Source: a virus
DNA: 22,598 nt
IMG/VR virus record: IMGVR_UViG_3300038468_000089
Span: 1 to 22,598 of that record
Direction: 5' to 3' (one strand)
Shown here: positions 1-19,104 of the stretch, piece by piece
Layout of the letters: each line of letters opens with the position of its first letter
Position numbering within the stretch: position 1 is the stretch's first letter
Position numbers and translations under genes: made by a program
The notes under the pieces: model-generated
What the model was told of the DNA's origin: nothing
Seen by the model: only the letters and a program-made list of their open reading frames with translations
Database searches by the model: none

Positions 1-3000
1 CCGGCCCTGGGCCGAGGCCATGAGCTTGTCGAAGGCGTGACGCGCGCCCTTGACCTTGGCCTTGCCCGTGAGGTCCAGCTCGGTGTTGACCGGGTCGAAG
101 GTCCCCTCGTGCATCCCCCGCCGCGGGTCCCCGCCGTAGGGTCCCGGCATCTTACCGCGGCCCTCGAGCGCCGCCTGGTAGGCGCTGTCCGCCTGCTCGG
201 TCGGCGACACGCCCTCGGGGAAGGAGGCCGCCACCACCAGGTCGAAGGCCTCACGGTCGAAGGCCTCACGCCTGGACCGGACCTTCGGCGGCACGCCCCG
301 GGGCATGGCGCGCGCCACCTGCGCGGCCATCGCCTCGGCCAGCGGGCTCTTGATGTCTTTGAGGTGCTGCGCGAGATCCGCGCGGTCCGATTCGCGAAGG
401 AGCCTTACTTGCTGGGTGAGCCTTTGGTCTGTCGCTCGGCGCGCAACTTCATCACGCCATCGACGATGAAGGCTTTGAACGTTGACCCATCTTCGATCAC
501 CTGGTAGCCGGCCTCCTTCAGTTGCTCCGTGAAGCTTTTCGGCTTCGGCAAGGTCGCCGACGCGGCTTGGCTTGCTGATGTCGCGCTGCTCGCGCTTGAC
601 TCCGGGGAGCTTGGCTCGGTCGGCTTCGTCGAAGGACTCGCCAATGGCATAGGCGAATGATAACCCGTTTTGCACAGTAGCGCCAGAGGAATCGACGCTA
701 TCCTTGTACAAAAAGAGCTTATCGGTCTGGTTCCGCAGCTCCTGTATGAATTGCCCAAGCGCCTGCTGGTCGTTGGACTGGAAGACGTACTCATCGCCGT
801 GGATGTGCGAGGCGTCGAACAGCCCACCGCCGAGCGCGGCCACCACCTCCGCGAAGTACTGGTTGATGGTGTCGGTTTCCCCATGGCCGAAGGCGTCGTT
901 CATCTCGCGGAACGCCCGGAGGTCGGCGGACACCACGAAGTCCTTGCGGTTGAGCTTGCGCGCCGCGCGCCACCCCGCGTCGTTAAGCAGGCCGCTCGCT
1001 TCGCGGTAGGTCTCGCGCAGAGCTGTGCCGCGCTTGGCCGCGGTCTGGTAGGCGGCCATCTGCCCAGGGCTCAGGGTGCCGCGCTCCGCGGGGCCCAGTG
1101 CGCCAAGCTCCTTCATCCTGGGGGCGAGGGGCGCGGCCGCCGCGGCTAGCGCCGCCCGCGCTTCGTCCGAGTCCAGGGCGATGCCCGGCTGGCCGGGCTC
1201 GAGGGCAATGGCCGGCAGGCCGGCGGAGAGCGCCGCCGGCGCCAGCTTGCGGTGCCCCAGCTCACCCTTGGCGATCAGGGCATCCTTGAGCTGCCTGTGG
1301 GCTTGGGACGTGGCCTGGATGGTCTCCTGCACGGTGCGCGCGCGGGGGGCTACGGCCGTCGTCACCTGGAGCCGTGGATCGACGCCCTTGCTCATCTCGG
1401 CCGCCAGCGCCCTGGCCTGCTGCTCATCTCGCACCCAGGCGCGCACCGAGCCCCCAACCTTGCCCGCGTCGGTGATGCCGGCCGCGGCCAGCGCCCGGGC
1501 CATCGCCCTGAAGCTGGCGTCGAGCGCCTCGTGCCCCAGCTCGTCATTGATGAGCTTGCCCCCTTCGAGATCAAACTCCGCCAGCAGCGGCCGGCTCGGG
1601 TCGCGGTCGGCGGCTTCCATGCCCGGGAGGTTCAGGAGCTGGGTGTTGGGGTCGCGCAGCAGTTCGTGGGCGCGTGCCTCCTCCGACATCGCGTTCCAAG
1701 CCTCTTCGATCTGAGGCATCGAGTCCGCCACCACCTCCGGCGCCGCGCGCCGCGCCGACAACGCCATGCGCCCCAGCACCTGCTCGGCCGCCCGCGGGTT
1801 GCGCAGGAGCGCCGTCCGGATAACGGCGCGAGTCGTGGCCACGCTCCTGCGCGCCTCATCCCGCGTCAGGCGCTGGGTGACGACGAGCTGATCCTCAAGC
1901 TCCTTTGCGTACTTCGCCTCGAGCGGCGACAGGGCGGCGGGCTCTTCGAAGGCGCCCTCCTTCGCCAGGCGTTTGGTCTCTTCGGCCGTGAACGTAGGGA
2001 GCGCCTCGAGCTCGCGCGCCGTGAGGTTCCCGGGCCGGGTCACAGCGTCCTGCCACAGCTCCTTGGCCACCTCGTTGTTGCGCCAGCGCTCGATGACCTC
2101 TTTGACCGGGACAGCGAGGGTCGCGGTCATCCCGGGATAGGCGTAGCGCTCGGCGAGCGCCGCTTCCAGCCGGCGATCGGCGTCGTCGCCGAGCAGCGCC
2201 TTCGCCACCTCCGCCGGGTCCATGCCCTTGCCCTTGGCGATGGCCGTGATCTGCGTCGGGTCGACGTAGATCTCCCTGACCTCCTGCCCGCTCATCGCGG
2301 TTTCCGTGGCCACGAGCTCCGCGAGCTGCCCCGGGATCTCGCCGGCGGCCGACGCCTCGACCAGCGACCGGATCGCCTCCAGCCGCGGGCCGTCGCGCCG
2401 CGAGCCGTCGATGGTGGCTGACTGCTGGGCGGCTGCCACCGGCATACCCATGGCGCCGATCAGGCCGCCCGCCGCCAGCCCCTTCATGCCCGCGATGTGG
2501 GACTCTGCCAGCAGGTCGCCAGTCGACCACACCTGCTGCTGGCCTGAGGACCGTGTCGCGGCCTCGTATTTGGCGATGAAGTCCACGGCCTGCTGGACGG
2601 ATTCCTCGCCGTATTCAGCGCCGGCCTCCTCGCCCCAACGCCGCGCGAGGTCGAAGAGCATCTTGCGCTTGGTCTGGTCCCCCAACGCCTTCAGCACCCA
2701 CTTCGAGGTCTGGCCGGAGGCCGCGGCCTCATTGAGCCCGACGAGCCCCCAGGAGCGCATCAACGGTCCGAGGCTTGCGATCTCGATGCCAGCCTTGACC
2801 AGGCCGGCGATCACGCTGACGACGTCGGCCACCTCCGGGTCGATCGTGTTGCCCTGGTCGTCTTTGGCCGTGATCAGGTCGCCGTAGGTGCTCCCGGCCT
2901 CGCGGCGGTAGCTCGAGCCAAACACCGCAAGCTGGCTGCCGAGCTCGAAGCCCACACGGCCGGCCACCTGCACCGCAACCTTCGCGCCACGCACCGCGCC

Positions 3001-4245
3001 CGCCGGGCTCCGAGTGAGCACCGCGCCGCCGGCGGCGCCCGCGGCCGCCACGGCCGCAACCCCGGCGCCCCCACCCCCGCCAAGCGCGGCCATGGTCTCA
3101 ACCTGCGAGGCGATGCCCTCGGTGGCGTCCAACGCCAGTTGCTCGGCGTACCCCTGGCCATAGTCGCGCTGGGTCCCGATGTCCTCGTCGAGCTGGCGGA
3201 TTGCCAGCCGACCCGCGGTGGCGGCATCCTCTGCCGCGCGCAGCGCGCGCTGGTCGCCAGAGCGCCGAGCGGCTCGAACGGCGCGGTCCAGGCCCCGCTG
3301 CGTTTCCCACAGCACCGACTTCTGCTCGCCGAGCCTGGTTCGGGCGAAGGTATCGAAGACCATCTCGCCGAGGTCCGCCCCGTACTTTGCGCCCAGTGGC
3401 CCGAGCGTCGCGCCGAGGGTTCCGCCAACCTCGCGCCCTAGTTCCCCGGCTTGCCCGGTTTCTCCCTGGCCGAGCGCCACGGGCTCCTGGATCGTCTGCC
3501 GTTGGATGGCGCCGGGCCGGCCGCGTTCCTCGGCCGCCTGCACCTGGCGCCGGGCGGCGACGCGCTCCTTGAGCCCTTCGCGAGAACCGAGAGACTGGCG
3601 CAGGACGATGTACCGCTCATGAAACGAGGCGTCGACCCAGTCCGACCAAGCCCCGAGTTGGCGGAGCGCGAGGGCCGCGCCGCTGATCTGCTCGTCTTTG
3701 AGCGCGAGCGCCATGAGGCGAGGGTCATGGGCCGCCCACGCCCAGAGCCCGCCATGCTCGCGGCGCCAGCGCTGGGCATCAAAAGAGCCGGCCGCGCGCG
3801 CCGCACGCATCTCCTCATAGAACTCCTCCGCGATGTCGATCGGCACGCCTGCGTTATTCAGGGCGATAACCCCGGCCTGCTTGTCCGGAGCACCGGCGAG
3901 GTCGTAGAGGGTGCGGAGGTGGGCGTCCTCGTTCATTTCGAGCTGCTCCGCCTCCGAGTACTCCTGCACCACGATCCGCTGGCCGGAACCCTGGGGGTTC
4001 TCGACGGAGTAGGCCAGACCCGGCTCCTCCGCAGCGGGGGGCTCCGCCGGGGCGGGGGGCTGCGGCGCCCGGGACTCGATCGAGAGCACCTCATCCGAAA
4101 GGTCCTCGATGTCGACGGCGGGCGTGGCCGGTTCTGGCTCGAAGGGCGCGGCGAGTTCGGCGGTCGGGGGTACGAGGTCCTCGTAGGGGTTGGTGCCTCC
4201 CGCCGGGGGCTTTGGCGGAACCAGGTCTTCGTAGGGGTTGCCCAT
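1..4245 (-). CDS. Giant gp16-position ejection-type protein with two GGDEF-like domains (3' end outside window)
   Basis: One frame stays open from the ATG at 4245 to the window edge: at least 1415 codons with no stop. The start overlaps the preceding stop (TGATG). Order seen: two copies of NPYEDLVPP (residues 3-11 and 19-27), a Pro/Glu-rich linker to about 80, helical regions, and Gly/Ala-rich hydrophobic segments near 385-410, 476-496 and 586-607. An acidic EEAGAEYGEESVQQ stretch near 539-552 precedes the last of these, as in other large phage ejection proteins. Then come a degenerate GGDEF-like region (864-1000) and a better-preserved one (1080-1222). Place and size fit the T7 gp16 role: a large protein that enters the envelope and helps pull DNA in. 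No lysozyme or transglycosylase motif is visible so far; one may lie beyond the edge. The ejection role is inference from order. Confidence 0.8.
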   Translation of the reverse strand, partial: MGNPYEDLVPPKPPAGGTNPYEDLVPPTAELAAPFEPEPATPAVDIEDLSDEVLSIESRAPQPPAPAEPPAAEEPGLAYSVENPQGSGQRIVVQEYSEAEQLEMNEDAHLRTLYDLAGAPDKQAGVIALNNAGVPIDIAEEFYEEMRAARAAGSFDAQRWRREHGGLWAWAAHDPRLMALALKDEQISGAALALRQLGAWSDWVDASFHERYIVLRQSLGSREGLKERVAARRQVQAAEERGRPGAIQRQTIQEPVALGQGETGQAGELGREVGGTLGATLGPLGAKYGADLGEMVFDTFARTRLGEQKSVLWETQRGLDRAVRAARRSGDQRALRAAEDAATAGRLAIRQLDEDIGTQRDYGQGYAEQLALDATEGIASQVETMAALGGGGGAGVAAVAAAGAAGGAVLTRSPAGAVRGAKVAVQVAGRVGFELGSQLAVFGSSYRREAGSTYGDLITAKDDQGNTIDPEVADVVSVIAGLVKAGIEIASLGPLMRSWGLVGLNEAAASGQTSKWVLKALGDQTKRKMLFDLARRWGEEAGAEYGEESVQQAVDFIAKYEAATRSSGQQQVWSTGDLLAESHIAGMKGLAAGGLIGAMGMPVAAAQQSATIDGSRRDGPRLEAIRSLVEASAAGEIPGQLAELVATETAMSGQEVREIYVDPTQITAIAKGKGMDPAEVAKALLGDDADRRLEAALAERYAYPGMTATLAVPVKEVIERWRNNEVAKELWQDAVTRPGNLTARELEALPTFTAEETKRLAKEGAFEEPAALSPLEAKYAKELEDQLVVTQRLTRDEARRSVATTRAVIRTALLRNPRAAEQVLGRMALSARRAAPEVVADSMPQIEEAWNAMSEEARAHELLRDPNTQLLNLPGMEAADRDPSRPLLAEFDLEGGKLINDELGHEALDASFRAMARALAAAGITDAGKVGGSVRAWVRDEQQARALAAEMSKGVDPRLQVTTAVAPRARTVQETIQATSQAHRQLKDALIAKGELGHRKLAPAALSAGLPAIALEPGQPGIALDSDEARAALAAAAAPLAPRMKELGALGPAERGTLSPGQMAAYQTAAKRGTALRETYREASGLLNDAGWRAARKLNRKDFVVSADLRAFREMNDAFGHGETDTINQYFAEVVAALGGGLFDASHIHGDEYVFQSNDQQALGQFIQELRNQTDKLFLYKDSVDSSGATVQNGLSFAYAIGESFDEADRAKLPGVKREQRDISKPSRVGDLAEAEKLHGATEGGRLPGDRRWVNVQSLHRRWRDEVARRATDQRLTQQVRLLRESDRADLAQHLKDIKSPLAEAMAAQVARAMPRGVPPKVRSRREAFDREAFDLVVAASFPEGVSPTEQADSAYQAALEGRGKMPGPYGGDPRRGMHEGTFDPVNTELDLTGKAKVKGARHAFDKLMASAQGR
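241..270 (-). repeat. Perfect 15-bp tandem duplication in coding sequence
   Basis: The 15-mer GTCGAAGGCCTCACG occurs twice back to back on the plus strand. It adds five residues in frame, giving REAFD twice near residues 1326-1335 of the giant protein. Identity at every base suggests a recent slippage or duplication event. Confidence 0.9.
580..1008 (-). other. GGDEF-like domain 2 of the giant protein (residues about 1080-1222), signature HGDEY
   Basis: Motifs in order: SGLLNDAGW (1084-1092), VVSADLRAFREMNDAFGH (1104-1121), D1125 at the GH..GD aspartate, HGDEY (1149-1153) at the GGDEF signature, then NGLSFAYAIGE (1193-1203) and EAD..KLPGVK, which matches the AD...Y..K end of the family. D1108 and D1151 at the metal sites, E1152, N1116 and D1125 are present. 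The first Gly of the signature is His and the Phe is Tyr. The residues needed for GTP binding are kept, so this copy could be active or a nucleotide sensor. Confidence 0.78.
1246..1656 (-). other. Degenerate GGDEF-like domain 1 of the giant protein (residues about 864-1000)
   Basis: The order of motifs follows diguanylate cyclases: DPNTQLLNLPG (865-875; canonical D.LTGL.NR..), LLAEFDLEGGKLINDELGHE (887-906; canonical D.D.FK.IND..GH), D909 at the GH..GD aspartate, and GGSVR (931-935) where GG[DE]EF is expected. VTTAV (961-965) and a final helix ending in LKDALIAKGE complete the fold. N900 and D909, which bind guanine in active enzymes, remain. The signature acidic pair is lost, so catalysis by this copy is unlikely. 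Confidence 0.72.
4165..4239 (-). repeat. Duplicated NPYEDLVPP coding motif
   Basis: The N-terminus of the giant protein has NPYEDLVPP twice (coding bases 4213-4239 and 4165-4191), 48 bases apart. The DNA copies differ at several third codon positions while the residues are identical, which points to selection on the peptide. Short NP[YF].DL-type words are, from memory, frequent at the ends of phage ejection proteins. Confidence 0.85.
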
Positions 4246-5987
4246 CAGCGGCCCTCGACGTGCTTGCGGTAGGTCTCTTCGATTTCGGCGGGGCTTGGGT
4301 CGGTTCCGCGCTTTTTCCGCCAGGCCTCAACAATCATGGCCCGGTCGGCCTCCGGCACTGCGGACGACACCGGGGCCGCGGGCGCCGGCGCAGAGCCGGA
4401 TGCCGCCGGCTCGAAGGTCCCGCCGCGGGATTCGACCTGGCCGCGCGTCTTGCCCTGGCCCCACAGCGCCGCCTCGCGCGCGTAGAACTGCGTCGCCCAG
4501 GCGTCGGTTTCCTTCTTGCTCGGCCGGGCGCCGGTCGACGCCTCGACGCCGGCCGCCCAGTCCGAGTATTGCGCGCGCATGTAGGCGACGTACCGGCGCC
4601 GGCTCTCTCCCTTGAGCGAGCGGGCTACCTCGTCGCCCTGGATCTGACGGTCGAACTCCCCCACCGTCTCCTCACCGAGCTTGCGGATCTTGTCGGTGGC
4701 CTGGCGCTTGATCACCGCGATGGCCTCGCGGGTGCCTTTGCCGGGGAAGGCCTTGCCGTCGTACCCGCGCCACTCTTCGCCCTGGGGGTCCATGGCCGCC
4801 TGTTCAAACAACGACTTGGCCCGGGCGTGATTGACGGCCCAGCGGTTGACGTCTGCCTGGTAGCGGTTCGCGGCTACGGACGACGGCCGGCTCTCGCGTT
4901 CTTCCGCCGCCAGCCACTGCGCGACCTGGACCTGGCCCTCGACGGGGAGCTGTTGCACGTCGTCATCGTTGAGCGTCACGACCTCGTCTTTCAGCACCCG
5001 GAGGTGGATCTTGTCGAGTGCCACGAGCAACCGTTGGCGCCTAACCTCCTGGTCAACCCGGATCGCGTGCTCAATCCGCCGCTGCACGTCATCACGCAGG
5101 CCGGGGTCATCGATCTCGCGAATGAGGCCTCCCGCCGCCCCGAGATCGCCCTGACTTTGGTGGAAGATCTGGTCCGCCATCCTGACGGCCGTGTCCTGAA
5201 CCTCGCCAGCCGCCAGGCGCTCCTCGATGCGCGAGTTTTGCAACGCCACCGCGTCGATCTCGTCCTTGTGCAGCGCGAACATCTCGCGGGCCTCGGGCAG
5301 CATCCCGCCCTTGACCAGGGAGTCCAACACGTTCAGGTATCCGTCCGTGGTGAACTCTGTCATGGCGCGTTTTCTGGCGTCCTTGTCCCATCCATCCTTG
5401 CCCGCCTTGTCGTCGATTCTCGCGAACCCCATGAACAGTTCATCGACTGCTCCCCCGGGGTCGCCACGGGCCGCCGCCGCGGTGGCGTTATCAATCGAGG
5501 TTGCCAGGGTCGCTTTGTAGTTCCGCTCCTCTACCGCGGCCGACTCGCTGGCCACGTGACGGTCAACGAGCGAGCGGAATTTGATTCTTCGGTTGTCCGA
5601 CAGGCTCTTGAACCCAGCTTTCCTGGCCGGATCGTTGCCTAGTCCCTTGCGGATGGTGTCGACCTCGCGCTCATACTGCTGCATGACCACGACGCTGCCG
5701 CCGATCGCGTTCTGGCCCTGCTGGCCGAGGAACCCACCCTCGCCCTCCAGCAATCGCTGCTCGGCAGCCGAGAGCTCCGTGTAGGCTTGGTCGAGCGCAG
5801 CATCGTTCTGTGACTTGCGTACCCGCTCGTACAGTGCCACGCCTTGCCCGGCCGTCTCGCCGATCTGCCCGACCGCTCGGCCGAGCTGCGCCTGCGCCTC
5901 GCTCGTCTGGTCGACGTTCTGGCGCCGGACGCCCGGCAGCGCATCGTATCCCGCGCGCTGTTCGTAGATGGGGATCTTGATGGGCAT
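4245..5987 (-). CDS. Internal virion protein C-like (gp15-position) ejection protein
   Basis: A 580-residue, mostly alpha-helical protein. The N-terminus (MPIKIPIYEQRAGYDALPG) and the following Gln/Ala/Glu-rich helices (AQAQLGRAVGQIGETAGQGVALYERVRK) are typical of internal virion or injection proteins placed after gp14 homologues. The middle has TPR-like helical pairs (DSLVKGGMLPEAREMFALHKDEIDAVAL, near 217-244). The end is an Ala/Pro linker and an acidic helix (ADRAMIVEAWRKKRGTDPSPAEIEETYRKHVEGR). It would form part of the trans-envelope ejection tube with the giant protein encoded next. It is coupled upstream and downstream by TGATG. The assignment rests more on position and style than on a motif. 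Confidence 0.68.
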   Translation of the reverse strand: MPIKIPIYEQRAGYDALPGVRRQNVDQTSEAQAQLGRAVGQIGETAGQGVALYERVRKSQNDAALDQAYTELSAAEQRLLEGEGGFLGQQGQNAIGGSVVVMQQYEREVDTIRKGLGNDPARKAGFKSLSDNRRIKFRSLVDRHVASESAAVEERNYKATLATSIDNATAAAARGDPGGAVDELFMGFARIDDKAGKDGWDKDARKRAMTEFTTDGYLNVLDSLVKGGMLPEAREMFALHKDEIDAVALQNSRIEERLAAGEVQDTAVRMADQIFHQSQGDLGAAGGLIREIDDPGLRDDVQRRIEHAIRVDQEVRRQRLLVALDKIHLRVLKDEVVTLNDDDVQQLPVEGQVQVAQWLAAEERESRPSSVAANRYQADVNRWAVNHARAKSLFEQAAMDPQGEEWRGYDGKAFPGKGTREAIAVIKRQATDKIRKLGEETVGEFDRQIQGDEVARSLKGESRRRYVAYMRAQYSDWAAGVEASTGARPSKKETDAWATQFYAREAALWGQGKTRGQVESRGGTFEPAASGSAPAPAAPVSSAVPEADRAMIVEAWRKKRGTDPSPAEIEETYRKHVEGR

Positions 5988-6499
5988 CAGCCAACGTACC
6001 CCCAGGCCGGCGAGGAAACCACGGCCTGCCCGATCTGAGCCCCGCCCGAGATCCCGGACGACAATGCCCCGAGGAACCCGGCCCGCCGCGCTTCTCGGGC
6101 GCGCGCTCGGTAGTCAACCTGCTGGGTCTCATATCCCCAGGCCTGCCTGGCGGCGGCCGCGCGGATACGGTCAGCGTCAGCTTGAGCGTTCATGGCCGAC
6201 ACCAGCGGCGCGCCTGCCGCGCTGCCGGACGTGGTCGAGATGCCCGACTTCGCCACCTGGGTGACGGCCGCGGCGCCAACCCGCCGGCCCTCGGCCTCGA
6301 CCCGCCTGGCCTCGTAGCCACCACGCTGGATCTCGGCGTTCCGCTGGGCGCGGGCCAACCTGGCGTTGCGCTCAGCCGTCTCGGCTTCGGCGGCCCCGGC
6401 TTTCGAGGCCGCGCCCGCCTGGAGGCCGGTCGCCGTCGCGGTCGAGGCGATCGAGATGCCGAGGCCGATCAGGGCCGGGATAGCGGCGATAGCACACAT
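5987..6499 (-). CDS. Internal virion protein B-like (T7 gp14-like) ejection protein
   Basis: A 170-residue protein starting MCAIAAIPALIGLGISIAS, a hydrophobic segment (about 3-24) followed by a long Ala/Arg/Glu-rich amphipathic helix (about 25-75, AETAERNARLARAQRNAEIQRGGYEARRVEAEGRRVG). This is the layout of T7 gp14-like internal virion proteins, which leave the virion first and form a channel in the outer membrane. Further Gly/Ala-rich segments near 76-96 and 140-165 fit membrane interaction. It overlaps the 67-aa gene by 31 bases and the next gene by TGATG. Order and pattern agree with the gp14 position. Confidence 0.77.
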   Translation of the reverse strand: MCAIAAIPALIGLGISIASTATATGLQAGAASKAGAAEAETAERNARLARAQRNAEIQRGGYEARRVEAEGRRVGAAAVTQVAKSGISTTSGSAAGAPLVSAMNAQADADRIRAAAARQAWGYETQQVDYRARAREARRAGFLGALSSGISGGAQIGQAVVSSPAWGYVG

Positions 6500-6672
6500 G
6501 CGACATCTCCATTTTGCACTCTTCCCACGCCGTCAGGGTACCAGCCGCTGGCGTACCGCGGATCTGGCGGCTTTCCCGGCGACACGGATATCGGCCTGGC
6601 CGCGGAAGGCTCAGGAATCTTGACAATCCCGGCCTCGATCGCCGCATTCAGGACATCGTAGACAGCGCACAT
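6469..6672 (-). CDS. Hypothetical 67-aa protein
   Basis: The ATG lies inside the last codons of the gp13-like gene, six bases after GGAGGA, and the stop lies inside the gp14-like gene. The protein begins MCAVYDVLNAAIEAGIVKIPEP, then becomes Pro- and Gly-rich. Its end (DVACVLS) and the end of the preceding protein (DVACALS) are alike, and its start (MCAV) resembles the next one (MCAI), because the two gene junctions share nearly the same DNA. No family is recognised. Confidence 0.6.
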   Translation of the reverse strand: MCAVYDVLNAAIEAGIVKIPEPSAARPISVSPGKPPDPRYASGWYPDGVGRVQNGDVACVLSPLSRP

Positions 6673-7145
6673 GCCACGTCCTCCTTGGTGACCTTGAACA
6701 TGCAGAAGTCGAGGCCCTTGGGGCCCCAGGGCCGCGGGGGCTGAAACACGAACCCGAGCCTTCTCCCCCAGCGGATGGCCTTCTCGTGGCGCGCGTCGAT
6801 CGCGTTGACCAGCACGTCCCACCGTTCGAACAGCGCCGGGAGCACCTCGATGCAGGCCTGCACGAACTCGCGCTTGTGGCGGTCGACCGCGTTGGTGGTC
6901 AGCATCCAGACGCACCCGACCCGGAGGCCGAGGTCACAGACTTCCGACACGCCCCACATGCAAAGCGGCTCGCCATCGACGCTGGCAACCCAACACTCTT
7001 TGCTGCCGAAGTACGACCGTGCGAGCGCCTCGAACGGGTCAACTCCTAGGGAGGCGTCGACCTCATCGACATCGGCCTGCCGCATGTCGCGGCCGATCGC
7101 GTCGATGTCGCGGTAGCGAGCCGCGATGATTTCAATCGCCGCCAA
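6648..7145 (-). CDS. Phage gp13-like (DUF2833, GNAT-fold) virion protein
   Basis: A 165-residue protein of the T7 gp13-like family. A TTG start at 7145, with GAGGGAG upstream, overlaps the nozzle stop by 14 bases. The pattern is typical: MAAIEIIAARYRDIDAIGRDMRQADVDEV, then an ECWVASVDGEPLCMWGVSEV strand pair (near 50-69), VWMLTTNAVDRHKREF (near 79-94), VNAIDARHEKAIRWGRRLGFVF (near 112-133) and DFCMFKV. This is a GNAT fold, in which the last helix and strand resemble acetyltransferases, but the family is known as an internal or assembly-associated virion protein, not as an enzyme. The location right after the nozzle gene matches T7. Confidence 0.82.
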   Translation of the reverse strand: MAAIEIIAARYRDIDAIGRDMRQADVDEVDASLGVDPFEALARSYFGSKECWVASVDGEPLCMWGVSEVCDLGLRVGCVWMLTTNAVDRHKREFVQACIEVLPALFERWDVLVNAIDARHEKAIRWGRRLGFVFQPPRPWGPKGLDFCMFKVTKEDVACALSTMS

Positions 7146-9675
7146 GCGTGTACTCCCTCAAGATCCCGAGGATCGTCATGGGCATGGGGGCGCTTTGCCG
7201 GATGGCGACGCGACCACCACGCCCCCACTCGTCGGCCACGGGTTCGACTTCCTCTGTGGTGCGCAGCGGGATGACGCCATACCCGTGCTCGACCGCACGG
7301 GTTCGGATCTCGACCAGGTGATCGAGGTCGGCCCCGACCGCGCCGCCCCTCGCGAACTCCAGCTCGACCGCCACGCGCTTGACAATCTTCTGTTTGCCGT
7401 CTTTCTGTTGAACGTCGAGCGATTCGAAGTCTGAATTGTACGGCAGACCCGCATGGAGCATGCCAGCGGTCTTGAGGTAGGTCCCCTCGTTGTCCGGGTC
7501 TATTGTGGCCGAGCCAGCCGTTACAGGCACGTTTTCGTAAACATCACCATCCGCCACAACCGTGACGGTTGAACCGTTCAGGTCGGGGGGCAGACCAGAA
7601 ACAGAAGACCGGCATACCCACCATTCGGTTTCTCCATCGGGGCAGTCGGCGGTCGCGAGCGCACGATTCAGTAGTTGGACGGTATAGTTCAGCCCGCCGT
7701 CGTCGGAGACAACCGAGAAGAAATACGGCTCGCCCCCCGCCCGGTCATCGATCCGCACAATCTCCCCGGCCACAAGAATCGGAACGTGCGAAATATGAAT
7801 CGAAAGCGTGGCGCCCATGGCATAGTCGGCCGGCGTCACAACCGAGAAGGTCGGAGTCATGGGGTAGAGCGAACGCAGCCCATTGTACGTCACGCACCGA
7901 TCGAGAAATATGCAGTAGCGGACATCGGGGTCGCCCTGGTTGTCAAGCGGGAAGCCACGGTAGGCCAGCCGCTCCAGGAAGTGGTGGTCCCCGCGCCTGA
8001 CGCATAGCCATACCCCCGATTCGCCTGCGCCCTCTGGCTTACAGCAGACGTTCTCAACCAGTCCGCCGCCGGCCGGCTCGTGACGAGCCCATGCCAAGAT
8101 CTCCAGCTCGGGCACGTAGGTAAACGAGAGCAACAGACCGTCCGAGCGCACAACCCACAGGATTTGGTGCGGGCTCTCAGCATAAGCCCAATCGGCAACC
8201 GCATAGCCGTCGAACAAGTGGCGAGCCAGAAGCGAGATGTCAGACACCCGTAGGGCATCGCCCTGGTTTTCCAGCATCCGGGGACCGCCGGTGTGCAGCT
8301 CGGCGAAAAACACGGCGTCCCCCGCCTCAACGTGCCGCAGGTCGGCGCACTGGATGTTGCTCAAGCGCCGTACCGCGATGCTGTTGGGTGTCAAAACCTC
8401 CGCGAGTCCGCTGCCGCCCGCGACCCAGATGCCACCGAGCGAACCGAGCACGAGACGTCCGAGGTCCGCAGCCCACCGGATCGCCTCTCTGGTCTTTGAC
8501 GCGATCGTGAACTCGTAGCTATCGGAGTCGTCAGCCGGCACCACCTCGTCAAAGTTGTCGAACATGTCGATCGACGAGCCCCAGACCGTTGCCGGGCGCT
8601 GCGATGTGGCGGCGAGGCCGCGGCGCGACTCGTAGAAGAACGGGACGCACGGCCTTTCGGCTCCGATCGGATTCGACCCCTGGGGCGGCGGGTCCGAATA
8701 GATCGGTTCGGCGCCATCGTCGTCGATCAATCGGCTCGTGGTCTCGCCAATGAACCCGAAATGACCACTGCGACCGCGGTAGAGCCGCGCGGAGTAAAGC
8801 GTGTCACCGCTCAATAGAACAGCACCGGGGAGTCTCCCGGTCCACACCGTCATCGGAAGATGCGGATAGAGAGCGTAGTCCTCCAAAACATCGCCGATCT
8901 CATACGGCGCCTCGTCGCTGCCGCTGCCGTCTGCGGGGTCTTTCGATACATGATACCGCTCGATCTCGTACGCCTGCGTTTCGTAGAGCTTGCCGTCTTT
9001 CGCACTGCGCACCACGTAGGTGAGAGCCCAGATCCACTCGCGCGCCGGGTAGGTCGGGGGGTCGCCGTCCACGCGGGCTGTTTTGGCCGAGACGGTTCGA
9101 AACCGTAGACGCGGCTCCCGCGCCTTCTTCTGCTCAACGGTCAGGCTGTCGTCGGTCCATTCGGCGGTAGGGAATGGCTCGGCTGTGGTGTCAAGGATCT
9201 CGATCGACCATTTCGTTGGCGAAGCGTAGCGGACCTCATAGGTGCTGCGGTCCTCAGTGCACAGGGTCAGATACAGACCATGCTGCGCCCACCGCAGTGA
9301 AACCAACTGGGCTGCGGTGTAGGGGAAGAGGGCGGTCGGATTGCCGGGGTCAAACATCATGATTGATGCATATTTGACGAACCAGTGCCGGTTGTCGGTC
9401 GGGGACTCGCGCCAGACCTGAATCCAGACATCATCGGCCACGAACACCAGCACGTAACTCTCGGTGGGGCTGACGACGAACGGGACGAGGCACACCTGGT
9501 CCGAGCCGAGATCGACCACATGCTGGGTACCCGAGCGGTTCAGCAAAGTCGCGTGTGGTGACACGAGGAAGTTTTTGAGAGTCCTGGCCCCGGCGGAATA
9601 CCGGCTGATGTCAGTCCGGCCCCAGAGGCCGGGCGCCAGCTCGCCGCCGGCCCAACTGAATTGCCGCTCCTTCAT
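7132..9675 (-). CDS. Tail tubular protein B-like nozzle protein
   Basis: An 847-residue protein, close to T7 gp12 (794). It would form the tail nozzle below the adaptor. The N-terminal signature is clear: FSWAGGELAPGLWGRTDISRY then SAGARTLKNFLVSP and LNRSGTQHVVDLG (near 6-56), as in the gp12/stabilisation-protein family. The rest is beta-propeller-like, with repeated aromatic strands: FFYESRRGLAATSQRPATVWGSSIDMFDNF (near 346-375), WAADLGRLVLGSLGGIWVAGG and SPHQILWVVRSDGLLLSFTYVPE. It is translationally coupled to the adaptor (TGATG). The C-terminus (about 760-847) is another beta region. The gene order adaptor-nozzle is as in T7. Confidence 0.88.
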   Translation of the reverse strand: MKERQFSWAGGELAPGLWGRTDISRYSAGARTLKNFLVSPHATLLNRSGTQHVVDLGSDQVCLVPFVVSPTESYVLVFVADDVWIQVWRESPTDNRHWFVKYASIMMFDPGNPTALFPYTAAQLVSLRWAQHGLYLTLCTEDRSTYEVRYASPTKWSIEILDTTAEPFPTAEWTDDSLTVEQKKAREPRLRFRTVSAKTARVDGDPPTYPAREWIWALTYVVRSAKDGKLYETQAYEIERYHVSKDPADGSGSDEAPYEIGDVLEDYALYPHLPMTVWTGRLPGAVLLSGDTLYSARLYRGRSGHFGFIGETTSRLIDDDGAEPIYSDPPPQGSNPIGAERPCVPFFYESRRGLAATSQRPATVWGSSIDMFDNFDEVVPADDSDSYEFTIASKTREAIRWAADLGRLVLGSLGGIWVAGGSGLAEVLTPNSIAVRRLSNIQCADLRHVEAGDAVFFAELHTGGPRMLENQGDALRVSDISLLARHLFDGYAVADWAYAESPHQILWVVRSDGLLLSFTYVPELEILAWARHEPAGGGLVENVCCKPEGAGESGVWLCVRRGDHHFLERLAYRGFPLDNQGDPDVRYCIFLDRCVTYNGLRSLYPMTPTFSVVTPADYAMGATLSIHISHVPILVAGEIVRIDDRAGGEPYFFSVVSDDGGLNYTVQLLNRALATADCPDGETEWWVCRSSVSGLPPDLNGSTVTVVADGDVYENVPVTAGSATIDPDNEGTYLKTAGMLHAGLPYNSDFESLDVQQKDGKQKIVKRVAVELEFARGGAVGADLDHLVEIRTRAVEHGYGVIPLRTTEEVEPVADEWGRGGRVAIRQSAPMPMTILGILREYTLGGD

Positions 9676-10538
9676 CAGTCTCGCGCCGCCAGGCTTGGGG
9701 TTTCAGGGTCGGTGTCGTGGCCGGTGTTGTTGGCTCGGCAGATCGCGCGGTCCAGCTCTTCGAGGTAGCGGGCGTGGCACCGCTGGGCGCGGGCTTCGTC
9801 TTTCGTCAGCGGGACAGCAATCGCTTCGGCGAGTCGCCACACCAGCGCCTCAACGAATGGCCGGGGCAGCAGCGCTACTTGCTCTTGCCGTGCCACATAC
9901 TGCAACGCTGCGATGTCGCTCTCGGCCAGGTCGCAACAGACCAGGAACCACTCGCCCACGTCGTCGGCCACAACCTCGAACGGCACCCGCGATTCAACCG
10001 GCGTCTGGCGGAACCGCGTGCCGGACACCAAGATCGCAACCGGGGTCACGCAGTCGGCCGGCAGTGGATACACGTGCTCCCAGCCAACCCGCGAGGTCGT
10101 GACCGTGATCTCCACGCTTTCGCCCGCCACCAGCGCGGCGGTCAACACGATCGTCGCGTCGGCCCCTACGCCCACGTCCGGGAGGGTGTAGCCCGTGTCG
10201 GCCACGAGATCTGTTCTGGTCCCCGTGGCGCCGATGTGAACAACCGACACCTGCGAGGGGTCGGCGAAGGGGAACGGGATCGTCCACGTGGTCCAGGGGT
10301 TCACTCCGGAGGCGTAGAGCTGGGTCGAGACCTGCTCATCGATCGCCACCAAAGGGCGCTCCCGCATGGCCCACGGCCAGGCGAACTCACCCAAGACGAT
10401 TTCGAGCACGTCATCCCACGCTCGCGCGCACGCTTCGGCGGCCGGACGGGCCTCGTCCTCGGCCATGACGAACTTGGTCTCGCCGATGGCGAACAGGGCC
10501 CGATTCCAGATGTCGAGCTTGGACGAGGAGCGCGGCAT
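9675..10538 (-). CDS. Tail tubular protein A-like adaptor with inserted beta domain
   Basis: A 287-residue protein matching the T7 gp11 (tail tubular protein A) adaptor family, which docks the tail under the portal. Family marks are LDIWNRALFAIGE (near 8-20), ACARAWDDVLEIVLGEFAWPWAMRERPL (near 36-63), GWEHVYPLPADC (near 152-163) and a C-terminal helical region with LVWRLAEAIAVPLTKD. T7 gp11 is about 196 residues; the excess is an insert at about 76-150 (TIPFPFADPSQVSVVHI, then a D..GYTL turn, then TIVLTAALVAGESVEITVTTSR). This insert resembles the N-terminal anchor domain of T7-type tail fibres. GAGGTGA precedes the ATG. The stop overlaps the next start in TGATG. Confidence 0.83.
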   Translation of the reverse strand: MPRSSSKLDIWNRALFAIGETKFVMAEDEARPAAEACARAWDDVLEIVLGEFAWPWAMRERPLVAIDEQVSTQLYASGVNPWTTWTIPFPFADPSQVSVVHIGATGTRTDLVADTGYTLPDVGVGADATIVLTAALVAGESVEITVTTSRVGWEHVYPLPADCVTPVAILVSGTRFRQTPVESRVPFEVVADDVGEWFLVCCDLAESDIAALQYVARQEQVALLPRPFVEALVWRLAEAIAVPLTKDEARAQRCHARYLEELDRAICRANNTGHDTDPETPSLAARD

Positions 10539-11437: not shown

Positions 11438-12457
11438 TTAGCTGATGGCGGTCTCCGCGGTGAGCGCGTCGGTGGTTCGGAGCGTGATGCCGTCCAGCGT
11501 GCGCAACCGCTGGCCGCCCATGGTGTCGCTGTCGCCGACCTGCCGGTGCTCGGGTTCGGTGACCCAGGTGAGCAGCCGGCTTTCGCTCGCCCGGAGTTGA
11601 GCTTTGGCCCGCCGGATCGTGGTCCGATCCAGGTAGTAGCGCGTGTAGGGCGTGATATCGTACAGCATGTCCTGCATGTCCATCAGGCCCTCGATCAACC
11701 CGCGCTCGCCCGCCGCCATCTCGGGGTCGTCCGGGTCCCACTGGAAACGGACGGCGTAGCGGTAGTCCTCGACCGCGATCCCGGCCCACCAGCGGTAGAC
11801 CGTCTCCCAGGCGTAGTACGCCTTGGAGTTGACATCGAGCACGCGCTGGCGGCCCATGTCCTCCTTGGTCAGTCCCGCGACCGTCCCCTTGGCGAACAGG
11901 CCGTAGATCTTGCGCGGCTCCCACGTGATCAGCCAGGCACTGCGGGCGTTGGAGCCCGCGTTGGTCCCGGCCTTCACGTAGTCGCTGTTGATGTAGCCCG
12001 AGGTCCCGCGGTAGCGCGGCGTGAGACCGTGGATGCCCTCGGGATTGCTGGAGACCGACTGGTAGAAGATCTCCTCGGCGATCCACTGCGGGAAGGCCGA
12101 CATCTTGATCATGTCCTCCGACAGCCGCCAGTTGCGCCCGCCCCGCAGCTTGACCGCCATCTCGTCGACCAGGCTGTGGTCCTCGATGAACGCCACCGTC
12201 TCTTCGTACTTCTCGGTCTTGGCCTTCGTCGCGCTGACGCCGCGGTTCAGGGTGCGATAGCTCGGCTCGGGCAACGAGGTCGACGTGTAGTCGATCTCGT
12301 GGCTGGTCGGCTTGTTCGACTCGATCCACGGGATGTCCTGGAGGAAGGGATTCTTCTTCTCCAGGATGTTGGTGATCTTGGCCAGCTCGCCGTTGGGATC
12401 GTCCCGGCTCGCCAGCTCGGCAATGGTGGGCCATCCACCGTCCTCGAACTCCGTCAT
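11438..12457 (-). CDS. Major capsid protein (Bbp17-like)
   Basis: A 339-residue protein with a good ribosome site (GTAGGAGAG) before the ATG. It forms the icosahedral shell. The N-terminus (WPTIAELASRDDPNGELAKITNILEKKNPFLQDIPWIES) and the middle (RTLNRGVSATKAKTEKYEETVAFIEDHSLVD) match the major capsid family of BPP-1-like podoviruses. Other typical wording includes GIHGLTPRY near 150 and an acidic TKEDMGRQRVLDVNSKAYYAWETVYRWWAGIAVEDYRY stretch around 205-245. It is flanked by a scaffold upstream and a Bbp16-like cement protein downstream, the expected order. Its relation to HK97 folds is family knowledge, not visible here. Confidence 0.88.
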   Translation of the reverse strand: MTEFEDGGWPTIAELASRDDPNGELAKITNILEKKNPFLQDIPWIESNKPTSHEIDYTSTSLPEPSYRTLNRGVSATKAKTEKYEETVAFIEDHSLVDEMAVKLRGGRNWRLSEDMIKMSAFPQWIAEEIFYQSVSSNPEGIHGLTPRYRGTSGYINSDYVKAGTNAGSNARSAWLITWEPRKIYGLFAKGTVAGLTKEDMGRQRVLDVNSKAYYAWETVYRWWAGIAVEDYRYAVRFQWDPDDPEMAAGERGLIEGLMDMQDMLYDITPYTRYYLDRTTIRRAKAQLRASESRLLTWVTEPEHRQVGDSDTMGGQRLRTLDGITLRTTDALTAETAIS

Positions 12458-13595: not shown

Positions 13596-15095
13596 TTACT
13601 GCACCGCCATCGACCAGTTGGTCAGCCACGAGTCATCGGCGACGTCGCTCGTGTTGATCAACTGGCAGAACGGAATGAAAAGCTTTCCGTCGCTGAGCGT
13701 GTGAGCGTCCGTCGCGCTCGGCGCCACGCCGTCGATCGTGTACGTGACGACGCCGGCGGCGCTGGCCAGCGTGCAGATGGCGTGTGACGCGTCGTCGGCC
13801 CAGTTGTCGGTCGTGTCCGTGCCGCCGGTCGTCTTGTCGTTGACGTAGATATCGCCGGTGTTGGTGCCGAGTCCGATCGCGGCGTAGTCGGTGTAGTTGG
13901 TGATCACCACCGGGACGTCCGGTGTTCTCAACCCGCACCAGAACCCATCAGTGCCCGAAACGTCGTGGAGCGTGAACGTGGCGCAGAACTTCACGGCCGG
14001 GTCGACGCCAGCGATGAACGGGCGGCCGGACGCCCCTCCGATGCCAGCGTGCATCTCCCAATGGTCGTTGTCGCCCGGTGCGCCCGCGTTGAGGTCCAGA
14101 CCGGTCGCTTCCGACGCTGGGGTGACGGTGCCGGTGGCGGTCGCGATGGTCGTAAAATTATACTGGGTATATTGATAGTAGATGTGGTTGGTCGCACCGG
14201 CCGTGGTCGAGTAGGCGGTGCCGTCTTGCTCGAGCATCGCCAACCCCTTGCCTGCGCCGGCGGCGAACGTCTGGAAGTGCGCGATCGGCCGCTGGACGGC
14301 CGCAGTGTACGTGAAGACTTCCGCACCGTTGTTCGACGCGTAGCGCATGGCGTCGGTGCGACCGGGGCTCCCCCAATCGAAGGAGCTGGAGTCGTTGTCG
14401 TTCGAAAGCTGCGAGGCTGCGGTGTTGGTGAAGGTGGCGGCACCGGCGCCAGCGCCGAAGCTCACCACACCGGTGAGCGTGGACAGCTCGTCAGCCACCA
14501 GGTTGCCGACGTTGATGTGAAGGGCGGTTTGCGCGTTGACCCCGGTGATATGGAGCTGGGGCGAGACGTCGGTGGTATCGAACACCAGCAGGTCGGTAGC
14601 CCCGGCCGACCCCATCTGAAACGCCGACGCATCGGCGTCCTTCAGCACGGCCGTCGCATCCCCACTGGTGAGCGTGATCACCCCGGCCCCGCCGCTCAGT
14701 GACCACAATAGCGCCGTGGTGAGGGTGGTCACGCCGGTACCGCTCTTGATCGTCACCCCGTCGGCGGTGAAGTCGAAGATCAGGTCCTCGTTGGCGACGC
14801 CGCTGCTCTCGAGGATCTTCCACTCCGTGTCGGTCCCGTTGCTGATGGTGCCGCTGTTGGCGCCGGTGAGCGTAGTCCCGGCGGACATCTGCACCCACGA
14901 GCCGGCCGCTCGCCACTTGAAATCATCGGTGTCCAGGGCATAGCCCATCGAACCATCGGGGACGGTGGTCGCCGCCGTGCGCAGCGCATCGGTCACGAAA
15001 ATCCGCAACCGCCCGTCCTTCATGTCGGCCTGCGCCGGAACCACCGCCAACAACACCAGAGCCATGGCCACCAGGGCCGTCATCATCTTTCGCAT
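13596..15095 (-). CDS. Signal-peptide-bearing beta-rich protein with lectin-like C-terminal domain
   Basis: A 499-residue protein. The first 23 residues form a textbook Sec signal peptide: MRKMM, a hydrophobic core, then cleavage after PAQA. Residues 24-330 are Thr/Ser/Gly/Ala-rich short beta repeats, like fibre or beta-helix proteins. Residues about 333-499 are compact and aromatic (DHWEMHAGIGG, GFWCGLRTPDVP, YAAIGLGTNTGDIYV, GVVTYTIDGVAP), resembling a concanavalin/laminin-G-like jelly roll. The ATG at 15095 is chosen because it starts the signal peptide. The gene lies among head genes, between portal and scaffold. It may be a capsid or fibre decoration that binds sugars, or an exported host-surface protein. 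I do not recognise a named family. Confidence 0.75.
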   Translation of the reverse strand: MRKMMTALVAMALVLLAVVPAQADMKDGRLRIFVTDALRTAATTVPDGSMGYALDTDDFKWRAAGSWVQMSAGTTLTGANSGTISNGTDTEWKILESSGVANEDLIFDFTADGVTIKSGTGVTTLTTALLWSLSGGAGVITLTSGDATAVLKDADASAFQMGSAGATDLLVFDTTDVSPQLHITGVNAQTALHINVGNLVADELSTLTGVVSFGAGAGAATFTNTAASQLSNDNDSSSFDWGSPGRTDAMRYASNNGAEVFTYTAAVQRPIAHFQTFAAGAGKGLAMLEQDGTAYSTTAGATNHIYYQYTQYNFTTIATATGTVTPASEATGLDLNAGAPGDNDHWEMHAGIGGASGRPFIAGVDPAVKFCATFTLHDVSGTDGFWCGLRTPDVPVVITNYTDYAAIGLGTNTGDIYVNDKTTGGTDTTDNWADDASHAICTLASAAGVVTYTIDGVAPSATDAHTLSDGKLFIPFCQLINTSDVADDSWLTNWSMAVQ

Positions 15096-15096
15096 C

Positions 15097-15249
15097 TCAC
15101 GCACCTTTTGGGCCCTTGGCCCTCTTGTGTTTGCTCGCCTCGATCGCCCGCAACTGTGCAAGCGCCTTGCGATAGGTCTCGTGCACGCCCAGCGTGCGCC
15201 CGCCGCCCTTGGTTGTGACGGCGAAGCCCTTGCCCCGTCGCACGATCAT
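15097..15249 (-). CDS. Small conserved-type phage protein, 50 aa
   Basis: A short frame with an ATG overlapping the portal stop (ATGA) and a TGA two bases before the start of the 499-aa gene. The sequence is basic, with a beta-turn start (MIVRRGKGFAVTTKGGG), then RTLGVHETYRKALAQLRAIEA, then a Lys/Arg tail. Very small proteins with this layout (MIV.R.G..., LG.H.T...A..QL.AIEA) are, from memory, common near portal or capsid genes of tailed phages. Their function is unknown. Confidence 0.7.
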   Translation of the reverse strand: MIVRRGKGFAVTTKGGGRTLGVHETYRKALAQLRAIEASKHKRAKGPKGA

Positions 15250-16928
15250 CGCACCGGCTCCGCGCCCACGGCCTGCGCGGCTGCCGCTGGCGCGAGCGTT
15301 GAGGCCAGGCCTTGCAACTGCCGCGCGTCGATGCCGCTGATGTTCTTCGCCCCCTGGGTCGCCTGCACCATGGCCTCGCCCGTCTGCTTGGCCTGCTCCA
15401 TCTCGGCCCGCGCGCGCCGGGTGGCGTCGACCTTGTTCTGGCTGACGATCATGTCGGGTCGAACGCCCGTGGTCCGAGCCAGCTCGTCGACCACGACATC
15501 CACGTCCAGCTTGTCGGCTGCCTCGGCATTCACCTGCGCCAGGCGCGTCACCTCGTCGACCATCGTGCGGATACCGGCGATGCTGGCGGCCTGTTGGGCC
15601 TGGTGCATGATCGAAATGAACTTGACCCGCACCTCCTGGCCTTGGAGCGCTTCGGGGGGCATCGGGTAGCCGCCGGCCGCCTCAATGATGGCGTCGGCCC
15701 GCTCAACCGCCGGCTCCAGTAGGGTCTTGTCAAGGCGCTCCAGCAAAGGGCCGAGGATGCGCATGAGCTCCTGGCGTTTGGCTTCGACCTCGGTGGCGGT
15801 CTGGCGCTGGGCGCGGTCGTCTTGGACGAACGCTTGCCACAGATTCACGTACAGGCTTCTGTTGATGCGGTCTTCGAGCTTGCCGATCTTCCGGTCAACC
15901 GCCTCCAGCGACCCCGGGTTGACCACCTGCGCTGGCTCGTACAGCCCCGCAACCCCGCCCTCCACGTCGGTCAGGTCGCCGGGAAGCAATGAAGCTCGCC
16001 GGATGCCCCGCCCCTTCATCGGCGGGTCGGCCGTCTTGTCGAACAACTTGTTGCCGGTCTTTTCGGTGTGCTGGAGCTGCTTGCAGTCGCCACGCGCGCG
16101 CCACCCGGGGCCGCGGCCGTACGAGTCGCCCGACCGCATCGACCAGTAGGGCGCCAGCACCGGGAAGCGCTCGTAACCGCCCTCGGCCAGGAAGGTGTCT
16201 TTGCGCCTGTCCCACTCATCCCACCAGCACGACGACCACGCCTTGCCCCGTGGGCCCAGACGGCCGGGGGTATAGTCGTCGTTTGGCACAATCGCGTGCA
16301 CAACCGTCCGCGGCTCCAACACCCCGCGCTCGGCCGCCTGATTGACCTGCGGCGCAACTTTCGACTCTCCGAACCGCTGGACCATTTGGCGCGGCGTCAG
16401 GGCCCACTCGCGGAAGTAGGTATCGCACTCGCCGCGGTGATCAACATCGAGACAGTAGGAACCAATCGGGGGCGCCGAAAACGTGAAGTGCCCGCGGTCC
16501 TCGTCAATCACGAGGCACGATTGCCCGATGCCGCCGAGGTCCGGGTAGGTGTTGTCGGCGAGCAGTGCGTACCAGTTGGAGACGGCGAATTCCTTCTCGA
16601 GGATGCGGCGCCGGAGGTCGAGGTAGGACTTGACCTCGTGCAACTCCGCGATCTCATCATCCAACACCGTGAGCATCATCCATTGGTGCGCGGGGTTCGT
16701 GTACCCCGCCATCATGGCGGCAGCAAAGAACTCGACCGCGAGCAGCGGCGTCGAGTTGATGATGTGGCTGTCCTTCTTCTCACCCCGGTTTTTCTCGGTG
16801 GCGTTCCACATGACCCGGTAGGGCAGCATTTGCTCGGAGATGTCGCGCCACACCGAATCCCAAGACGAGCGGGCGGTCTTGAGTTCAGCGCGCCTCTGCT
16901 GGAGGCGCTGGCGCGGAGAGAGCGTCAC
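15246..16928 (-). CDS. Portal protein (podovirus head-tail connector)
   Basis: A 560-residue protein of the T7-like head-tail connector family, which forms the dodecameric portal at one capsid vertex through which DNA enters and leaves. Typical features are the N-terminal WDSVWRDISEQMLPYR segment (near 23-38), the FFAAAMMAGYTNP helix (near 67-79), YWSMRSGDSYGRGPG (near 260-275), which matches the family's conserved Y.R.G..YGRGP region, and a long C-terminal helical region (about 345-490) ending in an Ala-rich tail. The start is GTG, overlapping the previous stop. Length is normal. The product is structural and sits in the virion; it nucleates assembly with the scaffold and capsid proteins encoded downstream. 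Confidence 0.93.
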   Translation of the reverse strand: MTLSPRQRLQQRRAELKTARSSWDSVWRDISEQMLPYRVMWNATEKNRGEKKDSHIINSTPLLAVEFFAAAMMAGYTNPAHQWMMLTVLDDEIAELHEVKSYLDLRRRILEKEFAVSNWYALLADNTYPDLGGIGQSCLVIDEDRGHFTFSAPPIGSYCLDVDHRGECDTYFREWALTPRQMVQRFGESKVAPQVNQAAERGVLEPRTVVHAIVPNDDYTPGRLGPRGKAWSSCWWDEWDRRKDTFLAEGGYERFPVLAPYWSMRSGDSYGRGPGWRARGDCKQLQHTEKTGNKLFDKTADPPMKGRGIRRASLLPGDLTDVEGGVAGLYEPAQVVNPGSLEAVDRKIGKLEDRINRSLYVNLWQAFVQDDRAQRQTATEVEAKRQELMRILGPLLERLDKTLLEPAVERADAIIEAAGGYPMPPEALQGQEVRVKFISIMHQAQQAASIAGIRTMVDEVTRLAQVNAEAADKLDVDVVVDELARTTGVRPDMIVSQNKVDATRRARAEMEQAKQTGEAMVQATQGAKNISGIDARQLQGLASTLAPAAAAQAVGAEPVR

Positions 16929-18826: not shown

Positions 18827-19104
18827 CCCGCAACCTCGACCAGCGGCGTGTAGCCGATCAGCACACGACCGCATATGCAGCGCATCGGGGGCAGCACGGA
18901 CCCGCGCTTCCCCGCCATCACCATTGCCCGGGGCTCTGTGGTGAGCAGCTCTTCGGTGCAGTGGGGGCAGGTGAGCGACAGCGCGGCGACGGGCACAATC
19001 TTGGCGCGAACGCGTGTGGGTTCGAGGTCGGCCTCGATCTCCTCGCGACCCTTGGGCGCGGCCGGATCGCAGGCCTGCACCAGCCCTACCATCGCGTCGG
19101 TCAA
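18823..19104 (-). CDS. Small Cys-pair protein between terminase genes, 93 aa
   Basis: A TTG start overlaps the small terminase stop (TTGA) and follows a strong GGAGGGGGAG ribosome site. The stop overlaps the large terminase start (ATGA). This double coupling argues strongly that the gene is real. The protein has CPHC near residue 50 and CIC near residue 76, a spacing consistent with a zinc ribbon, in a beta-rich C-terminal half; the N-terminal half is acidic and helical. It may help packaging or bind DNA, but no family is recognised. The longer upstream frame lies inside the small terminase gene and is not supported. Confidence 0.6.
   Translation of the reverse strand: MTDAMVGLVQACDPAAPKGREEIEADLEPTRVRAKIVPVAALSLTCPHCTEELLTTEPRAMVMAGKRGSVLPPMRCICGRVLIGYTPLVEVAG

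Follow-up and report, generated by a model that had tools for sequence, protein, structure and literature searches.

The phages T7, P22 and epsilon15 eject proteins of the gp14–gp16 type, which are encoded in the same gene order, and the C-terminal part of T7 gp16 has been assigned to a ring lying in the host cytoplasm (reviewed in PMC8954989). GGDEF domains have been reported in polyvalent proteins, where they were described as "not very widespread" and where interference with cyclic nucleotides was suggested (Iyer et al., 2017; PMC5512222). As these polyvalent proteins are described as injected, and as a diguanylate-cyclase domain is annotated in gp44 of phage YuA, the statement in an earlier note on this DNA that no such example was known has to be withdrawn.

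The locus compared here with these systems lies on a 22,598-base uncultured viral record, analysed over its whole length (the window). Its minus strand encodes the structural genes of a podophage in one operon, in the order terminase, portal, scaffold/protease-like protein, GP7 capsid, tail tubes A and B, gp13-, gp14- and gp15-like proteins and P0001 (Table 1). The ORF of P0001 runs off the window start, so that its C-terminal end is missing. Capsid and tail proteins matched those of phages such as BPP-1, epsilon15, Vibrio 1.185.O and Caulobacter Jess A. Between the portal and scaffold genes, an ORF at 13596–15161 (minus strand) has a signal-peptide-like N-terminus (MRKMMTALVAMALVLLAVVPAQA) and no PHROG match, and the window closes with a DNA adenine methyltransferase gene (Dam, PF05869; 21485–22597, minus strand). 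No Rfam families or tRNAs were found in the window.

Table 1. Features of the window, with positions, strand and the evidence for each assignment.
Feature	Position	Strand	Evidence
P0001, gp16-position polyvalent ejection-type protein	1–4245	−	1415 aa seen; gene order, residues 364–684 homologous to MW202722 giant
GGDEF domain 2 (domain of the earlier note)	541–1023	−	residues 1075–1235; Pfam PF00990, phage profiles, AlphaFold2, PDB fold matches
HGDEY signature (1149–1153), domain 2	787–801	−	sequence, alignment
Metal and guanine-recognition motif, domain 2: D1108...N1116-D1117...G-H...D1125	871–924	−	sequence, alignment
GGDEF domain 1, degenerate, in usual effector slot	1240–1698	−	residues 850–1002; phage profiles, AlphaFold2, PDB fold matches
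GGSVR (931–935), domain 1 signature degenerated, without the catalytic acids	1441–1455	−	sequence, alignment
Metal/guanine motif kept in domain 1: D892...K897..N900-D901..G-H...D909	1519–1572	−	alignment
Module shared with relatives' polyvalent giants, just before effector slot	2176–3156	−	residues 364–690; blastp, profile search with decoys
Three hydrophobic segments (384–413, 471–496, 587–607) ahead of GGDEF pair	2425–3096	−	hydropathy
Weak LPD22-like N-terminal stretch	3751–3927	−	residues 107–165; local profile, hhalign
gp15-like ejection protein, by position	4245–5987	−	PHROG 1044 and others; gene order
gp14-like internal virion protein	5987–6499	−	Pfam T7_gp14 27.3 bits; PHROG 418 E=3e-23
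gp13-like protein	6648–7145	−	Pfam Phage_T7_Gp13 21.6 bits, below cut-off
Tail tube B	7132–9675	−	PHROG 376; 135 phage records
Tail tube A	9675–10538	−	PHROG 394
Major capsid protein, epsilon15 GP7 family	11438–12457	−	Pfam PF20911 E=2e-63
Podophage portal (head-tail connector)	15246–16928	−	Pfam PF12236 E=6e-120
Terminase large subunit	17309–18874	−	PHROG 2

P0001 had been described in the earlier note as a phage ejection-type protein of the T7 gp16 type. This was borne out as to position, the large ORF directly following the gp14-like and gp15-like genes, but its sequence belongs with the polyvalent ejection proteins of BPP-1/epsilon15-type phages rather than with T7 gp16 itself. Residues 364–684 were homologous to the MW202722 giant protein (blastp 1e-6), and a profile search recovered this module in Jess A and BPP-1 as well, with scores higher than those of reversed and shuffled decoys. 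Pfam LPD22 was not detected in P0001; the LPD22-like stretch scored only 5–7 bits, though above 200 shuffles, with an hhalign probability of 24%. The Pfam scan of P0001 contained no SLT or lysozyme domain of the kind that forms the N-terminal peptidoglycan hydrolase of T7 gp16, a domain likewise not conserved in P22-like phages (PMC8954989). Neither tblastn of P0001 against cultured phages nor exact peptide patterns from the whole of P0001 and its tail protein, searched in viral contigs, returned a match or relative.

In several cultured relatives, the gene at the position of P0001 encodes a 2000–3200-aa protein with LPD22 and an effector at about residues 610–830. The effector is an ART domain in MW202722, Jess A and DC33, a PBECR1 RNase in BPP-1 and a GNAT domain in Vibrio 1.185.O. 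Seven other uncultured podophage records showed a gp14-like gene, a gp15-like stretch of mostly about 1.5–1.7 kb and then a large ORF with one intact GGDEF domain; six of them carried the PF12236 portal and five the GP7 capsid. LPD22 was found at the N-terminus of the GGDEF protein in five of the seven, and in these five the GGDEF domain lay near residues 700–930, i.e., in the effector slot. In one podophage (L162, 6687–8681) the GGDEF ORF measured only 665 aa from stop to stop; a large gene may have been split there by a frameshift, or the protein may be truly shorter.

By analogy with T7, P22 and epsilon15, P0001 is probably ejected into the host cell: it would be a polyvalent protein of the BPP-1/epsilon15 podophage type, carried in the virion and passed into the cell together with the phage DNA, its exchangeable effector position holding the tandem GGDEF domains. 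The hydrophobic segments possibly form a membrane-insertion region. Because all three precede the GGDEF pair, the part of P0001 that follows them, and with it the pair, would by the same analogy reach the cytoplasm.

The GGDEF-like domain recognised in the earlier note at 580–1008 (minus strand) corresponds to P0001 residues 1080–1222, and its identity as a GGDEF domain is practically certain. Pfam GGDEF (PF00990) scored 27.9 bits against the whole of P0001 (cut-off 23.8; E=2.4e-6; best stretch 1092–1173) and 21.8 bits, below the cut-off, against the domain cut out alone. Higher scores were obtained with profiles of ten large phage GGDEF proteins (49.5 bits) and of 21 close phage relatives (55.7 bits). 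As the earlier note had proposed, the domain was modelled and compared with GGDEF structures: the AlphaFold2 model, built on 29 sequences (pLDDT 83.8, pTM 0.78), followed the beta-alpha order expected and contained the HGDE hairpin, and all 50 of the listed PDB fold matches (Foldseek; best E=4.3e-9) were GGDEF/diguanylate-cyclase structures. A chance resemblance in some other fold could draw on the single-sequence search of the PDB, which gave only E=0.013, but the corresponding profile search returned GGDEF-family chains (best E=5e-24) and, taken with the Pfam score above cut-off, the phage profile scores, the predicted fold and the PDB fold matches, led us to reject this explanation as having a negligible likelihood. 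The domain is therefore real, but it is not the single GGDEF domain that had been described, since a second, GGDEF-like domain lies at 1240–1698. In 580–1035, the G+C content at codon positions 1 and 2 was 0.65 and 0.40, compared to about 0.76 and 0.51 in the rest of P0001, which may reflect a separate acquisition of domain 2.

A search seeded with domain 2 retrieved 22 viral loci, 21 of which encode ORFs, mostly of 1500–4000 aa, with the GGDEF form SIDVDSLKWVND..GH..GD...YHISGDEF. The D, DxD, K, N, D and GDE residues were kept in 20–21 of 21 subfamily sequences, and the catalytic residues were invariant in all 21. Such conservation points to selection for catalysis, and its strictness argues that the YHISGDEF subfamily is catalytic. 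Domain 2 scored 62 bits with the phage profile vs. 35 bits with the cellular profile (+27) and domain 1 scored 38 vs. 23 bits (+15), whereas for each of 136 cellular test domains the cellular profile was ahead by 24 bits or more. The canonical GGDEF pattern matched mostly cellular GGDEF proteins, from which the large phage proteins were separated by ORF size and Pfam. A mixed cellular/phage GGDEF alignment was too variable for searching. A DNA pattern for the divergent motif retrieved nothing but a fortuitous motif, located almost always in a tail-tube-like protein, and was discarded. Three weak phage matches (MT835770, MT837255 and MT836256; L002, L003 and L004) were also set aside, being contigs from human gut that encode ordinary bacterial genes along with GGDEF proteins of cellular type. 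Labelled Bacteriophage sp., these records appear to be bacterial sequences that contaminate the phage collection.

Other giant phage proteins combine GGDEF with ART, LPD5, SLT or helicase domains, and in one of them GGDEF and an ART-PolyVal domain occur together (L061/L168). Two subfamily members are found in MAG contigs labelled Hyphomicrobiales and Methylococcaceae. One record (L139, G027) contained the same GGDEF ORF twice, with identical scores, at 9601–10011 and 14484–14894 in inverted orientation, probably a palindromic assembly artefact. Stand-alone members, annotated as diguanylate cyclases, occur in YuA-like Pseudomonas and Bordetella phages; in MP1412 (L181, 10983–11944) and YuA (L182, 6615–7573) the immediate neighbour of the gene is a KlcA-like anti-restriction gene, which suggests a possible part in counter-defence. 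For such stand-alone cyclases an action on host behaviour has been suggested, the YuA gp44 record bearing the note "putative role in host cell conversion", and lysogens of Bordetella phage LK3 show a hyperbiofilm phenotype whose cause has not been established (PMC8471281). The GGDEF domains of P0001 could by extension belong to a late or lysogeny enzyme and not to an entry effector; we consider this improbable, given that they are fused into an ejection-type protein encoded in the structural operon, outside the early and lysogeny regions.

The residues named for domain 2 in the earlier note, namely D1108, D1151, E1152, N1116, D1125 and the HGDEY signature, were all found at exactly the positions given. 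The final AD...K helix is also present, as ADR...K, with K1217 aligning to a Lys kept in 20 of 21 relatives. In domain 2 the D...GDE set is thus complete and the C-terminal Lys retained. The description "near-intact" holds for these active-site residues but not for three others: D, K and G, present in 21 of 21 relatives, are replaced in the alignment by R1110, R1113 and T1124, and the second Asp and the Lys of the DxDxFK motif are consequently absent. Positions nine to six before HGDEY, where an inhibitory RxxD I-site would be located, read G-G-L-F, and the I-site is therefore absent. As to the first signature position, His was tolerated in an HGDEF mutant of VCA0965 and Ser occurs naturally in ECA3270 (SGDEF), a tolerance that depends on context; His or Ser at this position is accordingly compatible with activity (PMC3974145).

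Domain 1 scored 29.3 and 30.7 bits, over about residues 852–1000, with the profiles of the ten large proteins and of the 21 relatives, respectively, and 15.8 bits, below the cut-off of 23.8, with Pfam GGDEF when taken alone. Since all rows of the tandem alignment fell on domain 2, the two domains were folded separately; the model of domain 1 (pLDDT 93.4, pTM 0.86) likewise had GGDEF proteins as its PDB fold matches (Foldseek). Domain 1 retains the lead helix by which the phage subfamily is characterised (WNAMSEEARAHELLRDPNTQLLN vs. MSPEEMRQELLTDPLTGLPN). In place of the active-site motif G-G-[DE]-E-F it has GGSVR, and its DxDxFK motif carries E at the second Asp position and K at the Lys position. 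The metal Asp and the guanine-contacting Asn and Asp are present in both domains, as D892, N900 and D909 in domain 1 and as D1108, N1116 and D1125 in domain 2. Two GGDEF copies were not found in any other large phage protein examined, nor was a close relative with a tandem GGDEF. Both domains were on very long branches of the tree, which for this reason places neither of them and does not distinguish duplication from separate acquisition.

The identity of both copies to their relatives was below 30%, and together with the long branches and the lost signature of domain 1 this would fit a decayed effector, in which the GGDEF domains are relics or structural parts of an ejection protein devoid of nucleotide function. 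This seems unlikely, because the ORF has remained open, both domains gave predicted folds of good confidence and the nucleotide-contact residues are kept in both copies. A catalytically dead pair that still binds nucleotides, delivered either to sense GTP or c-di-GMP or to soak up nucleotides of host signalling or defence, carries more weight, although we hold it to be less probable than catalysis. It would account for a domain 1 that lacks the catalytic acids while retaining the guanine-binding D, N and D, and for the departure of domain 2 from residues invariant in the subfamily, and degenerate GGDEF domains that bind nucleotides or are otherwise active are known (PMC3974145). The full D...GDE set and C-terminal Lys of domain 2, and relatives in the same slot that look fully catalytic, speak against it. 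Given the changed invariant residues and the long branches, the activity of domain 2 may nevertheless be gone or altered, and we regard enzymatic activity of the GGDEF pair as plausible, at just under an even chance.

The reading that we tentatively favour, while placing it somewhat below an even chance, is that P0001 is ejected and that its tandem GGDEF domains pair, make a guanine (di)nucleotide signal and disturb host signalling or defence. Diguanylate cyclases act as two facing GGDEF domains. In P0001, domains 1 and 2 might pair within the chain or within a ring of ejection proteins, as a gp16-type cytoplasmic ring could bring GGDEF domains together. The catalytic metal site (D1108, D1151/E1152) would then come from domain 2, with domain 1 as a non-catalytic partner that could still hold a guanine nucleotide via D892, N900 and D909. 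A symmetric c-di-GMP reaction within one chain is not expected, because domain 1 lacks both catalytic acids. The putative product would be c-di-GMP or a linear or mixed relative, made in the first minutes of infection, which may disturb c-di-GMP control or a nucleotide-based defence of the host. If active, P0001 would bring a synthase of nucleotide messengers into the cell along with phage DNA, whereas phages are known to do the opposite, degrading or sequestering these messengers. For assays, the seven podophage relatives with intact residues would constitute better starting material than the protein of the window itself.

Compared to the diguanylate cyclases PleD and DgcB, the GGDEF domains of P0001 have the fold and the metal- and guanine-contact residues in common. 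They differ in the absence of the I-site RxxD, in a His, invariant in the subfamily, that replaces the Arg before GGDEF, and, in domain 2, in the loss of the second Asp of DxD. Cas10 of type III CRISPR systems also contains two related palm domains per chain, with the catalytic signature on one only; it is specific for ATP and operates within a crRNA complex. The likeness to P0001, one catalytic and one non-catalytic palm per chain, is an analogy of mechanism only: GGDEF was the sole domain in the Pfam scan of P0001, which contained no Cas10 features, and its recognised neighbours are phage structural genes. It is conceivable, if distinctly doubtful, that the phage delivers a pre-made, single-chain Cas10-like pseudo-heterodimer whose guanine-containing oligonucleotide, made on entry, jams or hijacks a cyclic-nucleotide defence of the host before phage genes are expressed.

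The stand-alone proteins YuA gp44, MP1412_43 and that of Bordetella phage CN2 belong to the same phage GGDEF subfamily (124–130 bits to the profile; SGDEF or AGDEF), but they are only 152–156 aa long and encoded outside the structural operon. The polyvalent GGDEF proteins of Iyer et al. (2017; PMC5512222) resemble P0001 in being very large, multidomain and thought to be co-delivered with DNA, with GGDEF among their effectors. Unlike the other examples found, which have a single intact GGDEF domain, P0001 has two, the first degenerate, in the slot of a gp14–gp15–gp16-type podophage operon. Among the open-licence papers compared, this tandem of a catalytic and a non-catalytic GGDEF domain appears to be new; also new in that literature are the definition of the YHISGDEF subfamily with its invariant active site and the recurrence of GGDEF as one option among the effectors exchanged at the gp16 position in podophages of the BPP-1/epsilon15 type. 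Counterparts by context are the LPD22 polyvalent proteins of BPP-1 (Bbp10), Caulobacter Jess A, Limnohabitans DC33 and Vibrio 1.185.O, which share with P0001 the gene position and the pre-slot module, their phages being likewise of the GP7 capsid and PF12236 portal type. LPD22 is clear in these proteins and only weakly visible in P0001, and their effectors are a PBECR1 RNase, ART or GNAT where P0001 has GGDEF. Podophages of this type thus swap an ADP-ribosyltransferase, an RNase, an acetyltransferase and GGDEF in one slot of a predicted ejected protein, and because of this exchange the slot can be mined for entry-stage effectors.
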